From contig JANQFR010000068.1 in NCBI GenBank assembly GCA_028277745.1, positions 1-64,000 on the forward strand: a DNA stretch of 64,000 nucleotides, given 5' to 3'. The notes under the pieces were generated by a model, which made no database searches, was not told the DNA's origin, and saw nothing but the letters and a program-made list of their open reading frames with translations. Within the stretch, counting starts at the first letter, position 1. Each line of letters starts with the position of its first letter. Of this stretch, positions 6,555 to 63,816 are shown piece by piece. This stretch comes from Phycisphaeraceae bacterium. Its GTDB lineage: Bacteria; Planctomycetota; Phycisphaerae; Phycisphaerales; Phycisphaeraceae. Made by a program: the position numbers and the translations under genes.

Positions 6555-6607
6555 CACAGCCGGCGGGCTACGCCCGCCTGGTCCGGGGCCGTGTAGCGGC
6601 CCGGCTA
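6555..6607. repeat. Family A palindromic element, copy 2
   Basis: Same two-hairpin element as at 747-799, with a few substitutions (CAGCC for TAGCC at the left edge, GTGTAGC for GCGTAGC). It lies between the convergent ends of metXW and the HAD gene. Confidence 0.9.
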
Positions 6608-6627
6608 TTTCCGCCGTGCAACTCTCT

Positions 6628-15343: not shown

Positions 15344-15423
15344 AAGCCGGCCCTGAGCGCAGCGAAGATCCGGATGGCTTGAGGCGGTCGAATCCGGACC
15401 TTCGCTGCGCTCAGGACCGGCTT
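15344..15423. repeat. Family B inverted repeat pair, copy 1
   Basis: Two 32-bp arms in inverted order. The left arm 15344-15375 reads AAGCCGGCCCTGAGCGCAGC onward, and the right arm 15392-15423 is its near-perfect complement. They are separated by 16 bases. The same arms, in opposite order, flank the transposase gene at 30536-31135. The pair lies between the convergent ends of tatD and the PilZ gene. Confidence 0.9.
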
Positions 15424-19121: not shown

Positions 19122-19130
19122 GCGGTCCCG

Positions 19131-19190
19131 TTAGCCCCGGGTTTTGCCCGGGGAGCGTGGCCATCAACCCCGGGCAAAGCCCGGGGCTAA
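19131..19190. repeat. Family C palindromic element, copy 1
   Basis: A 60-bp element with outer arms TTAGC/GCTAA and two GC hairpins, CCCCGGG-TTTTG-CCCGGGG and CCCCGGGC-AAA-GCCCGGGG, joined by a 14-base spacer. Related copies are at 58681 and 63789 inside the ribosomal operon. This copy begins 9 bases after the aldehyde dehydrogenase stop. Confidence 0.9.
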
Positions 19191-19233
19191 AGGAAGGCTT
19201 GCATAACGCGGCCGGTTCGATGATCGTAACGTC

Positions 19234-21349: not shown

Positions 21350-21402
21350 ATAGCCGGCGGGCTACGCCCGCCTGGGCCAGGGCCGCGTAGCGGCCCGGCT
21401 AT
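21350..21402. repeat. Family A palindromic element, copy 3
   Basis: Almost identical to the copy at 747-799, with one changed base in the spacer (GGGCCA for GGTCCA). It lies between the convergent ends of ybaB and the Rieske gene. Confidence 0.92.
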
Positions 21403-29666: not shown

Positions 29667-30503
29667 TCAGGTCACGGTCCGGTAGCGTTCGGCGATGAGC
29701 GCGAGGTAGTCGTGCTGGTCCATTGCCCAGTAGTGCTCGCTGAAGACCTCGACCTCGTTAAATCCGTCGAAGCCGGCCCGCTCGACCATGGCGCGGATGC
29801 CGGCGATGTCGGCGCAGCCGTCGCCCATGAGGCCACGGTCGGTGAGCAGGTGGCGGGTGTTGACGCGCCAGTCGCAGACGTGGAAACCCAGGAGCGTCCC
29901 CTGCTGCCCGGCCAACTCGATCTCACGTTCGAGGTCGGGGTCCCACCAGACGTGGTAGACGTCGACGGCGATGCCGAGCATGGGGTGGCGGAGAGCCTCA
30001 CAGATCGCGCGGGCCTCGGCCATGCGGTTGACGCACGACTTGTCGCCGGCGTACATCGGGTGCAGCGGCTCGATGGAGAGCTTCACGTCGACCTGCTGGG
30101 CGTGGTCGAGGCAGGCGGCGATGCCGTCGCTCACTTGCTTGCGCGCCTCGGCCAGCGGTAGCCCGGGCGTCGCGCCGACCACCAGCACCACCTGCCCGGC
30201 TCCGAGCGCGGCGGCCTCGTCGAGCATCGTCTTGTTGTGGTCGATCGCCTTCTGTCGATCGGCGTCATCCAATGCCGTGAAGAACCCGCCCCGCACGTAC
30301 GCGGGCACGGCCAGGCCCGAGCCCTTCACCGTCTTGACCGCTTCCTCCAGCCCGACGCCGCCTTCCTCGGGGGCGACCGTGTTCCGCCAGATGCTGATCG
30401 CCGCGACCCCCGCCGCGGCGTAGGCGTCGCAGCACTGCCGCAGCGACCAGGGTTTGTTGGTCATCGTGTGGACAGCGCATTGTGAGAGGTCGTTGAGCGG
30501 CAT
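29667..30503 (-). CDS. Sugar phosphate isomerase/epimerase-type TIM-barrel protein
   Basis: A 278-residue AP-endonuclease-2-like TIM barrel, the fold of inosose dehydratases, hydroxypyruvate isomerases and sugar epimerases. Candidate metal ligands are Glu in LSIEPLHPMY, Asp/His in AVDVYHVWWDP, His in GFHVCDWRV and Glu in NEVEVFSEHYW. GGAG lies 6 bases before the ATG. It is in the same orientation as the Gfo/Idh oxidoreductase gene upstream, and the two were probably one transcription unit. A family B repeat and transposase cassette of about 700 bp now separates them. The substrate is unknown. Confidence 0.82.
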   Translation of the reverse strand: MPLNDLSQCAVHTMTNKPWSLRQCCDAYAAAGVAAISIWRNTVAPEEGGVGLEEAVKTVKGSGLAVPAYVRGGFFTALDDADRQKAIDHNKTMLDEAAALGAGQVVLVVGATPGLPLAEARKQVSDGIAACLDHAQQVDVKLSIEPLHPMYAGDKSCVNRMAEARAICEALRHPMLGIAVDVYHVWWDPDLEREIELAGQQGTLLGFHVCDWRVNTRHLLTDRGLMGDGCADIAGIRAMVERAGFDGFNEVEVFSEHYWAMDQHDYLALIAERYRTVT

Positions 30504-30516
30504 GTGGTGCTCCGAG

Positions 30517-30606
30517 ATCCGGACCTTCGCTTCGCTCAGGACCGGCTTTGACGTTGGTCCATGAATTGTTTGAGAAGCCGGTCCTGAGCGCAGCGAAGGT
30601 CCGGAT
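30517..30606. repeat. Family B inverted repeat pair, copy 2 (left flank of the transposase)
   Basis: Arms of 32 bp at 30517-30548 and 30575-30606, in inverted orientation with a 26-base spacer. One base differs from the other copies (TTCGCTTCGC for TTCGCTGCGC). Most of the pair is inside the transposase coding sequence and encodes its last 23 residues and stop codon. Confidence 0.92.
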
Positions 30607-31135
30607 CCCCATCGTTTCGGTCATAACGCCACACCCAGGCCCCCTGCGCGCCATGGCTGACGATGTAGTGAAAAACCGTGCGCTGGTGTTCTACATCTTT
30701 AATCCGGATCGGCTTGCCGCCGTCAGCCCACACCCGCCCGGGCTGCGCCTCCCGGATGGCGTGCGATGACGCCTGCCTGAGCCGGCCGACCTCGCGTTTC
30801 ACCCACTCCCAGCCATCCGGCAAGGCAAGAAGCAGGTGGGTGTGCGTGGCTCCCGCCGCAAGGACCAGGCAAGGTGAATTCATTTCGGTTGCTTTCTCCA
30901 GCATGGCCTGACCCAAACGAGGCAACACCGATGATGGGAGGACAACGGGTTTCGAACTGCGCACCTTTTGATAGACGGCCAATCCTGCGTGTTCACCGGT
31001 TGGCGGGCGGCGTTTGTAATCGCCGCTGCTGTGGAGGCGGTGTTTTCGTGAGCGGAACCCGCGTTCGTCGCCTGGAAGCCATTGGCCCCGGCAGGTGAGG
31101 ATGATGTGCCACCAAGCGCGATTCAGTCCCGGCAT
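30536..31135 (-). CDS. REP-associated tyrosine transposase-like protein (Y1/HUH family)
   Basis: A 199-residue protein. It begins with NRAWWHIILTCRG, the usual first strand of IS200-like Y1 transposases. The metal-binding HUH motif is His98-Thr-His100 in ATHTHLLLALP. The candidate nucleophile is Tyr157 in the helix RTVFHYIVSHGAQG, with the family VWADGGKPIRI segment just before. RAYTs are single-copy domesticated relatives of IS200 transposases that cut REP hairpins. The start at 31135 was chosen because homology begins there; the open frame extends further upstream only through the repeat and antisense to the oxidoreductase. Residues 177-199 are encoded by the REP arm. No canonical NHxHL or YxxNP was seen, so it is a divergent member. 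Confidence 0.75.
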   Translation of the reverse strand: MPGLNRAWWHIILTCRGQWLPGDERGFRSRKHRLHSSGDYKRRPPTGEHAGLAVYQKVRSSKPVVLPSSVLPRLGQAMLEKATEMNSPCLVLAAGATHTHLLLALPDGWEWVKREVGRLRQASSHAIREAQPGRVWADGGKPIRIKDVEHQRTVFHYIVSHGAQGAWVWRYDRNDGDPDLRCAQDRLLKQFMDQRQSRS

Positions 31136-31148
31136 GGGGGTTAGTGTA

Positions 31149-31222
31149 ATCCGGACCTTCGCTGCGCTCAGGACCGGCTTCTCGGACGCAAAGCCGGTCC
31201 TGAGCGCAGCGAAGGTCCGGAT
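31149..31222. repeat. Family B inverted repeat pair, copy 3 (right flank of the transposase)
   Basis: Perfectly complementary 32-bp arms at 31149-31180 and 31191-31222 with a 10-base loop. It lies between the transposase start and the stop codon of the Gfo/Idh gene. Confidence 0.93.
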
Positions 31223-31227
31223 CCCCC

Positions 31228-32385
31228 CTACAACCCGGGCACGTCCACCCAGCGCTTCTCCTTCCACGACTGCATCCCCAGTTCCGCCAACTGCACGCCC
31301 CTGGCGCCCTCCATCAGCGTCCACCGGAACGGCTCGTCCAGCGCGACGTGCCGCAGGAACAGCTCCCACTGGATCTTGAACGCGTTGTCGTATTCGATGT
31401 TGTTCGGCACGAGCTGCCAGCCGCCGTAGAAGTCGATCGGCTGGGGGATGTCGGGGTTCCATACCGGCTTTGGCGTTTCGGCGGCGCTCTGGACGTAGAC
31501 CTCGCGCAGCCCGGCGACGGCTGAGCCCTTCACGCCGTCGACCTGGACGGTCAGCAGGTCGTCGCGGCGGACGCGGGTGCACCAGGAGCTGTTGAACTGG
31601 CACATCGTGCCGTCTTCGAGCAGGAACATGGCGTAGGCCGAGTCGTCGGCGGTGGCGTCGTAGGGTTGGCCGGATTCGTCGCGGCGCTGCGGGATGTCGG
31701 TGGCGCCGTGGGCGACGAGCGACTTGATCGGGCCGAAGAGGTTGGAGATGACGTACTGCCAGTGGCAGAACATGTCGATCATGATGCCGCCGCCGTCTTC
31801 GGCGCGGTAGTTCCACGAGGGGCGTTGGGCGGGCTGGTCGAGGTCCATGCCGGTGAAGACCCAGTAGCCGAACTCGCCGCGCACGGAGAGGATCTTGCCG
31901 AAGAAGCCCAACTCCTTGAGCATCGCGATCTTGCGGAAGGACGAGAGCCAGAGCTTGTCCTGGACGACGCCGTTCTTGAGCCCCGCGCCGTCGACGAGTC
32001 GGGCGAGACGGACGGCCTCGTCGGTCTGGGTGGCGGTGGGCTTCTCGCAGTAGATCGCCTTGCCGGCCTTGACGGCCATCTCGATGAAGCCGGCGCGTTG
32101 GAGCGTGCCGGAGGCGTCGAAGAAGACCTCGTAGTCGCCGTGCTTGCCGTCGAGGGCGCCCTGGACGTCGGTGGTGTATCTGAGCCCGCCGTGGGCGTCG
32201 GCGAGGGCCTGGAGCTTATTGGCGTTGCGGCCGGTGAGGATGGGGTCGGGCATGAGCGTGAGGTCGGGGCTGACCTTGACGCCGCCTTGTTGGATGATGG
32301 CGAGGATCGAGCGGATGAGGTGCTGGTTGGTCCCCATGCGTCCGGTGACGCCGTTCATAATGATGCCGATGCGGCGTTGTTCCAC
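31228..32385 (-). CDS. Gfo/Idh/MocA-family NAD(P)-dependent oxidoreductase
   Basis: A 385-residue dehydrogenase probably acting on a sugar or inositol derivative. A Rossmann N-terminus ([13 protein letters not shown]) precedes the family motif [12 protein letters not shown] and a C-terminal substrate domain. The latter includes the usual acid/His region [13 protein letters not shown]. The start is a GTG with AAGGAG 7 bases upstream. It reads towards the TIM-barrel isomerase gene, an arrangement typical of sugar catabolic operons, now interrupted by the REPIN-RAYT cassette. The substrate cannot be deduced. Confidence 0.88.
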
Positions 32386-32493: not shown

Positions 32494-32546
32494 ATAGCCG
32501 GGCCGCTACGCGGCCCCGGGCCAGGCGGGCGTAGCCCGCCGGCTAT
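32494..32546. repeat. Family A palindromic element, copy 4 (reversed)
   Basis: The reverse complement of the copy at 747-799, with one or two changed spacer bases. It lies between the start of the Gfo/Idh gene and the end of the AraC gene, the only copy of the five not at a convergent junction. Confidence 0.92.
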
Positions 32547-44675: not shown

Positions 44676-44727
44676 ATAGCCGGGCCGCTACGCGGCCCTG
44701 GTCCGGGCGCGCGTCGCCCGCCAGCTA
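44676..44727. repeat. Family A palindromic element, copy 5 (reversed, diverged)
   Basis: Begins at the base after the argC stop. The ATAGCCGGGCCGCTACGCGG half is intact. The other half is mutated (GGGCGCGCGTCGCCCGCCAGCTAA). It lies at the convergent argC-nth junction and supplies the nth stop codon. Confidence 0.85.
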
Positions 44728-45375
44728 ACCACCGAGTTGTTGGCAGCACGTCCGCCCCAGCGGGCACCCGTCGCCCTGGGGGTTGCGGGCCTTGCATACC
44801 GCGCGGCCGTGCCAGATGAGCAGGTGGCTCAGCAGGGTCCAGTGCTTGCGGGGGAACAGGTCCATGAGGTCGCGTTCGATCTGCACGGCGTTTTTATCAT
44901 CGGCGTCGGTGAACCCCAGCCGCTTGGCGATCCGGCCGACGTGGGTGTCGACGACGACGCCTTCCTGCTTGTCGAACGCGTCGCCCAGGACCACGTTGGC
45001 GGTCTTGCGGGCGACGCCGGGGAGGGTGAGCAGGTCTTCCATGGCGTCGGGGACTTTGCCGCCGAAGTCGTCGACGATCGCGATCGCGGCGCCTTTGATG
45101 TTTTTCGCCTTGTTGCGGAAGAAGCCGGTGGTGCGGATCAGCTCTTCGATCTTTTCAACCGGCGCGTCAGCCATTTTCTGTGGGGTGGGGTAGGCCTTGA
45201 AGAGGGCGGGGGTGACCTTGTTGACGCGCACGTCGGTGCACTGGGCCGAGAGGATGGTGGCCACGAGCAGCTCGAAGGCGTTGCGGTGGTCGAGGGCGCA
45301 GTGGGCGTCGGGGTAGGCGTCGAGCAGTTTGCGGTAGATCCGCATGGCGCGGCGTCGGTCGGCGGGGTCGGCCAT
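44725..45375 (-). CDS. nth: Endonuclease III
   Basis: A 216-residue base-excision-repair glycosylase/AP lyase for oxidised pyrimidines. The helix-hairpin-helix is LPGVARKTANVVL, with catalytic Lys124, and Asp143 is in VVDTHVGR. The C-terminal iron-sulfur loop has Cys194, Cys204 and Cys210. The expected second cysteine (position 201 in C-x6-C-x2-C-x5-C) is glycine, and an extra Cys211 is present. I chose the ATG at 45375; a TTG at 45399 would overlap the preceding gene. The last codons lie in the family A repeat. Confidence 0.92.
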   Translation of the reverse strand: MADPADRRRAMRIYRKLLDAYPDAHCALDHRNAFELLVATILSAQCTDVRVNKVTPALFKAYPTPQKMADAPVEKIEELIRTTGFFRNKAKNIKGAAIAIVDDFGGKVPDAMEDLLTLPGVARKTANVVLGDAFDKQEGVVVDTHVGRIAKRLGFTDADDKNAVQIERDLMDLFPRKHWTLLSHLLIWHGRAVCKARNPQGDGCPLGRTCCQQLGG

Positions 45376-58676: not shown

Positions 58677-58680
58677 CCCG

Positions 58681-58729
58681 TTAGCCCCGGGCTTTGCCCG
58701 GGGAGCCCCCCGGCAGAGCCGGGGGCTAA
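58681..58729. repeat. Family C palindromic element, copy 2 (inside the ribosomal operon)
   Basis: Outer TTAGCCCC/GGGGGCTAA arms enclose hairpins CCCCGGGC-TTT-GCCCGGGG and CCCCCCGGC-AGA-GCCGGGGG. It occupies the whole rplW-rplB gap and ends 12 bases before the chosen rplB start. Confidence 0.88.
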
Positions 58730-61002: not shown

Positions 61003-61115
61003 TATAAAGCCGCGGATGTTATCCGCGGCCCCGAACCGCGGACAACGCCGCGGCCGCGAAAACCGCGGATAACCCCGCGGACCCGAAAACCGCGGATGAC
61101 ATCCGCGGCTTTATA
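61003..61115. repeat. Family D: array of four hairpin units between rpsC and rplP
   Basis: Four hairpins built on CCGCGG...CCGCGG lie at 61010-61028, 61036-61053, 61063-61080 and 61090-61108, a period of 26-27 bases. The array is closed by a perfect outer pair TATAAAG (61003-61009) and CTTTATA (61109-61115). The first and last 26 bases are inverted copies with one mismatch. It ends 12 bases before rplP. Confidence 0.9.
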
Positions 61116-63776: not shown

Positions 63777-63788
63777 CTCCGCACCCCA

Positions 63789-63816
63789 TTAGCCCCGGGC
63801 TCGGCCCGGGGGCCAA
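63789..63816. repeat. Family C half-element, copy 3 (inside the ribosomal operon)
   Basis: A single hairpin TTAGCCCCGGGC-TCG-GCCCGGGGGCCAA, matching one half of the element at 19131. It fills the rpsN-rpsH gap and ends 9 bases before rpsH. Confidence 0.8.

Follow-up and report, generated by a model that had tools for sequence, protein, structure and literature searches.

Introduction

Among bacterial transposases that appear to be retained for the sake of their repeats, RAYT-REP pairs are the chief example. The biochemistry consulted here rests on three proteobacterial pairs from two groups (PMC8266576), and a diverse, mostly planctomycete branch that differs in Tyr motif and foot would reveal how guide sequence and protein change jointly. 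The RAYT/TnpA-REP proteins of Pseudomonas, Stenotrophomonas and E. coli combine an HUH motif with one Tyr, their genes occur at low copy number between inverted REPs, inverted REP doublets are dispersed through the genome, and several unlike RAYT-REP pairs can be found in one genome. The system described here, located in a 64,000-nucleotide stretch of DNA (the window), is alike in all these respects and in fold. It differs in having Y-x-x-x-H instead of Y-x-x-x-NP, an AAG/ACG foot instead of GTAG (or GTGG), and an additional conserved insertion, WLPGDPRGFRxRxHRxHSSGDY, between strand 1 and helix A; its protein also scores under the family cut-offs.

Two other groups of Y1 enzymes are relevant for comparison. 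Class 3 TnpA-Y1 proteins from Planctomycetes, Acidobacteria and Proteobacteria (Quentin et al., 2018) share with the window family the planctomycete hosts, a similar length (178), an extended N-terminal conservation, a W-T/A motif, and atypical flanking hairpins that sometimes reach high copy number. Membership in this class was considered and rejected, as its description sets it apart by a Y-V-[VI]-[AENY]-E-Q motif, whereas the window family mostly has Y-I-x-x-H, and by a CnGA foot (PMC6006769) instead of AAG/ACG. IS200/IS605 elements (IS608, ISDra2) have in common with the window system the fold, the HUH-Y motifs and the subterminal hairpins. No paper describing this transposase family was found in the openly readable literature.

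We conclude that the locus is very probably a REPtron (RAYT-REPIN system) whose enzyme belongs to a divergent branch of Y1 HUH transposases found mainly in planctomycetes. A divergent RAYT-REPIN system had been proposed in a preliminary description of the window, and the proposal is supported by 126 repeat arms in the genome, by retention of the HUH and Tyr residues in 71/71 homologues and by repeats framing 58/69 homologue loci.

The transposase gene and its repeats

The gene was read from the window as a minus-strand frame with an ATG at 31135 and a stop codon at 30538-30536. Its product has H98-T-H100 as HUH motif and Y157 as candidate catalytic Tyr (Table 1). All elements of the arrangement noted earlier, a 199-codon gene with His-Thr-His and Tyr between two pairs of 32-bp inverted arms, are present, and the third arm pair that had been reported 15 kb away could be located. 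The last 23 residues and the stop codon, which had been attributed to the left repeat, indeed fall within the left repeat unit at 30517-30607.

Table 1. Features of the transposase unit, its host neighbours and the dispersed REPIN of the window
Feature	Position	Strand	Basis or remark
RAYT-like Y1 HUH transposase gene	30536..31135	-	ORF, conserved HUH/Tyr, profile match, AF2 fold; 199 codons plus stop
Repeat-encoded C-terminus, residues 177-199 plus stop codon	30536..30607	-	Coordinates; most homologues end earlier
REP arm F, outer left	30517..30548	+	
REP arm R, inner	30575..30606	-	Abuts and overlaps gene 3' end
REP arm F, inner	31149..31180	+	13 nt from start codon
REP arm R, outer right	31191..31222	-	
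Whole unit	30517..31222		706 nt; between two host genes that are adjacent without the unit in six relatives
Dispersed REPIN, same family	15344..15423		R-16-F; two convergent genes have their 3' ends on either side
Host neighbour, xylose-isomerase-like TIM barrel gene	29667..30503	-	
Host neighbour, Gfo/Idh/MocA oxidoreductase gene	31228..32385	-	Stop codon 5 nt from outer right arm

The 32-nt arms at the gene are 97-100% complementary; their core is matched six times in the window and never in 100 shuffles. They are ordered F-26-R-gene-F-10-R. The inner pair is thus organised like a REPIN, with the gene standing in for the spacer, and the distant pair (R-16-F) is arranged opposite to the two gene-flanking pairs (F-26-R and F-10-R). 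Rfam gave no matches in the region of the transposase unit.

A divergent branch of Y1 HUH transposases

The window protein scored 15.2 bits with both the Pfam Y1_Tnp model (cut-off 23) and the NCBIfam REP_Tyr_transpos model NF047646 (cut-off 80), below threshold in each case; at E<=0.01, these two models match 43 and 44 of its 71 homologues. A single-sequence PDB search with the window protein returned chance matches only, and a profile was required. With the profile of homologues, the best solved relative was 4er8 (E. coli TnpA-REP, E=2.3e-4), in whose alignment Y157 corresponds to Y115 and H161 to N119 (4er8 residues numbered by counting from the alignment). The AF2 model of the window protein (pLDDT 90.6) has 4er8 and IS608/ISDra2 TnpA as its nearest folds. 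Its comparison with 4er8 gave a Foldseek E of 2.3e-5 and a VIA Z of 10.6 over 126 residues at 3.5 A, and that with IS608 TnpA a Z of 11.5 over 105 residues at 2.4 A.

Residues H98, H100, W136 and Y157 are invariant, so that every one of the 71 homologues retains the HUH and Tyr residues whose conservation had been put forward as a check on the RAYT assignment. Four positions after the Tyr, at position 161, His is found in 54/71 homologues, Gln in 10/71 and Lys, Arg or Glu in 7/71; Asn is found in none (0/71). The window protein has H161, and class 1 IS200/IS605 enzymes have Y-x-x-x-Q. In IS608 and TnpA-REP, Q131 and N119, respectively, serve as metal ligands. Because residue 161 is equivalent to these two, it may likewise be a metal ligand in the window family. 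Both have been termed essential (PMC6006769).

A conserved stretch lies between strand 1 and helix A (W19, D23, R25, G26, R28, H35 and G38), and the published class table contains no counterpart of similar size to this insertion (PMC6006769). The family lacks two sequence marks of RAYT/TnpA-REP, Y-x-x-x-NP and GTAG, and shares their structural and organisational marks. Since both sequence marks are absent, it stands outside the published subclasses. The label "divergent" given to the system at the outset was an understatement, as its Tyr motif, foot and N-terminal insertion are all outside the twelve published subclasses (PMC6006769).

Homologues are present in 28/50 good-quality genomes, the source genome included. 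Their named hosts are mostly Phycisphaerales, with some Gemmataceae, Isosphaeraceae and Pirellulales, and the few that appear under other phylum labels may come from mislabelled bins.

Repeats around homologous genes

A repeat shared by both flanks (score 16 or more) was found at 58/69 homologue loci, compared to 4/137 in a control in which flanks were swapped between loci. Homologues lacking flanking arms and the HUH and Tyr residues would have spoken against the assignment; most are framed by repeats of their own. This result also bears on the alternative that the palindromes act as transcription terminators, or form a MITE family of no relation to the gene, which would lie among them by accident. 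The hairpins are long and near-perfect, and the copy 15 kb away sits between convergent genes, as such a reading would have it. We find it scarcely credible, however, because of the contrast between 58/69 loci and the control, because all seven other Y1 genes of the genome also have palindromes near one or both ends, and because the repeat consensus contains no T-run.

At 120 flanking hairpins, AAG (39), which is the foot of the window arm, and ACG (29) were the most frequent trinucleotides on the 5' side. Known REP feet are GTAG and CGTC (PMC3733652). In two genomes (G057 and G030) the repeat pattern of the homologue tested was hardly or not dispersed, with 2 and 3 matches, respectively. Divergence of protein and REP was correlated (Mantel r 0.24, p<=0.0005), but we do not take this as proof of coevolution: the correlation is carried almost entirely by pairs with more than 50% protein identity, and common descent of the whole locus therefore explains it equally well.

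A dispersed REPIN population

Copy number, spacing and orientation of the arm across the genome had been proposed as a check. In the 5.1-Mb genome (99 contigs), a search allowing up to 3 mismatches recovered 126 arms and none with the reversed pattern used as control, which corresponds to an estimated 63 REPINs (126 arms divided by two). The arm is abundant in this genome only, with 125 copies compared to 0-9 per genome in 60 relatives. The surroundings were read at 57 places, covering most of the arms. By set criteria, 52 of these are complete two-arm units, and at one of the remaining five an arm is paired with a diverged one. All 52 fall into a single class, AAGCC...GGAT - spacer - ATCC...GGCTT (R-spacer-F, 80 nt), with a spacer of 13-26 nt that measures 16 nt in 37/52.

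An individual arm takes up a REP fold that comprises an AAG foot, a 4-bp stem, one mismatch and a second stem, and the two arms together form one long hairpin. Arms are on average 96% identical to their consensus and vary strongly at two columns only. Both columns are the same in the two arms of 25/52 REPINs, where 6.3 were expected and 14 was the maximum in 2000 shuffles. As the two arms vary jointly, the pair is copied or corrected as one.

REPIN flanks are near one consensus at 30/52 loci compared to 0/207 displaced controls, a contrast that is somewhat flattering because the consensus was built from the same loci. The consensus contains terminal inverted repeats, AGAACGTGTGTGAG...GTGATC on one side and the complement CTCACACACGTTCT on the other. 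Insertion of REPINs into a second, older repeat was considered as its origin and rejected: no flank copy without a REPIN was found (0 matches for the empty flank), and all six flank matches (6/6) lay at REPINs. A better reading is that the flank was the outer portion of a longer ancestral element, a portion lost or decayed in the other copies. Spacer orientation relative to the flank shows no clear bias (16 vs 21), and no empty REPIN site was found.

Insertion of the unit between host genes

On one side of the unit lies a Gfo/Idh/MocA oxidoreductase gene and on the other a xylose-isomerase-like TIM barrel gene; the transposase gene and both neighbours share one strand. In six relatives (L177-L181 and L183) the two host genes are adjacent in the same order and the transposase is absent; their matches to the host genes are 32-223 nt apart and 55-83% identical. 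A further relative, L184, has both genes in reversed order and was left out of this set. The 706-nt unit accounts for the extra length at the window locus. Its absence between the host genes of the six relatives is a direct hint of insertion, and we therefore regard the unit as an insertion. No target duplication was identified. In L177 and L179, the gap between the oxidoreductase and TIM barrel genes carries other palindromes with an AAAG foot, as if the site attracts REPs.

An inserted unit with hairpins on both ends could also be an ordinary IS200/IS605-type insertion sequence, in which the gene mobilises itself, the hairpins mark the left and right ends of the element and the dispersed pairs represent remnants left by deletion. 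The REPIN layout shared by the inner arms and the gene would suit such an element, and REPINs may in fact be deleted derivatives of a gene-carrying unit. Nonetheless, this alternative as a whole seems highly improbable to us. The gene is present once and REPINs about 63 times, so that most repeat copies are gene-less. Further family members in the genome are remote, the next best being 37% identical over the aligned part, whereas IS200 copies inside one genome are alike to about 99% (PMC6006769, Table 1). In addition, the Tyr motif is not Y-x-x-x-Q, the neighbours are host metabolic genes, and TnpB is absent.

The transposase thus most likely works as a RAYT with a REPIN population. By comparison with other RAYTs, such an enzyme would bind the REP hairpin as single-stranded DNA, would use the 5' AAG foot as they use GTAG, and would cut beside this foot through Y157, with the catalytic metal held by H98, H100 and probably H161. 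Two-arm REPINs would be copied or moved in trans.

A C-terminus encoded by the repeat

It was suggested in the preliminary description that the repeat had rewritten the protein tail. This is borne out by the homologues, most of which are without the tail: they have a median of 10 residues after W169, compared to 30 in the window protein. The end of the reading frame overlaps a repeat in 15/69 loci, by about 50 nt or more in six of them, and no overlap exists in the other 54. At least five changes are needed to explain the long overlaps on the tree, which is a quick one with many weak forks. Repeats do rewrite C-termini, and have done so more than once in this family. REPs directly behind RAYT stop codons were already noted (PMC2817692), as were REP termini that provide stop codons (PMC3733652).

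The repeat-encoded tail is probably a by-product of read-through after loss of an earlier stop. A gene that abuts a REP would lose its old stop codon, and translation would then continue across the REP as far as the following in-frame stop. The branch of the window protein is long (0.88 compared to 0.26-0.51 in its sisters), and the protein differs at two near-invariant positions, with K120 changed to R and T15 to C. Because of this long branch and these two changes, the window copy may be in slow decay.

The C-terminal tail of E. coli TnpA-REP makes contact with the GTAG foot and modulates activity, which rose when the last 13 residues were deleted (PMC8266576). By analogy, a function of the repeat-encoded tail is conceivable. 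The tail would then be an adaptation, a REP-supplied C-terminal helix that aids binding of the protein's own REP, with repeat and protein evolving together; this would be compatible with a RAYT-REPIN system. Residues 178-197 are modelled as one helix (block means of 80-86 pLDDT), the E. coli tail offers a precedent, and long repeat-encoded tails arose repeatedly. Even so, adaptation is very unlikely in our opinion, given that 54/69 homologues have no repeat overlap, that the pLDDT of a lone helix says little and that there are signs of relaxed constraint on the window copy. It is likewise unlikely, though somewhat less so, that the family constitutes a further class of REP-processing HUH enzymes, defined by His as third metal ligand, an AAG/ACG guide foot and a REP that repeatedly supplies the C-terminal helix. 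If this were true, substrate and enzyme would share sequence.

Other repeat families and Y1 genes in the genome

The genome contains seven further single Y1 genes (contigs C40, C2, C75, C39, C74, C35 and C17; L001-L003 and L160-L163) with their own palindromes nearby. L001, a canonical Y-x-x-x-NP gene, is associated with a GTAG foot, and the Y-x-x-x-H genes of the same genome mostly with AAAG or GAAG. Counting the window gene, eight different Y1 genes coexist, every one of them close to its own palindromes, and the genome offers a natural setting in which to test REP specificity.

Another REPIN family is found in the window at 747-799, 6556-6608, 21350-21402, 32494-32546 and 44676-44728; its foot is ATAG, and its two arms differ from each other, having GGGCCG and GCGGGC stems. 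Its core pattern has 230 exact matches in the genome and none in the control. The Y1 gene at about 111 kb of G000:C2 is likely its transposase; the same repeats flank that gene.

Inverted repeats at 61003-61115 (TATAAAGCCGCGGATG...) are like those around another Y1 gene (G000:C75:4921-5382), whose last residues and stop codon (S-R-G-stop) also come from its repeat. Finally, a family of palindromes with a TTAG foot (GTTAGCCCCGGGCTTTGCCCGGGG) occurs at 19127-19156, 19168-19193, 58677-58706 and 63785-63814.
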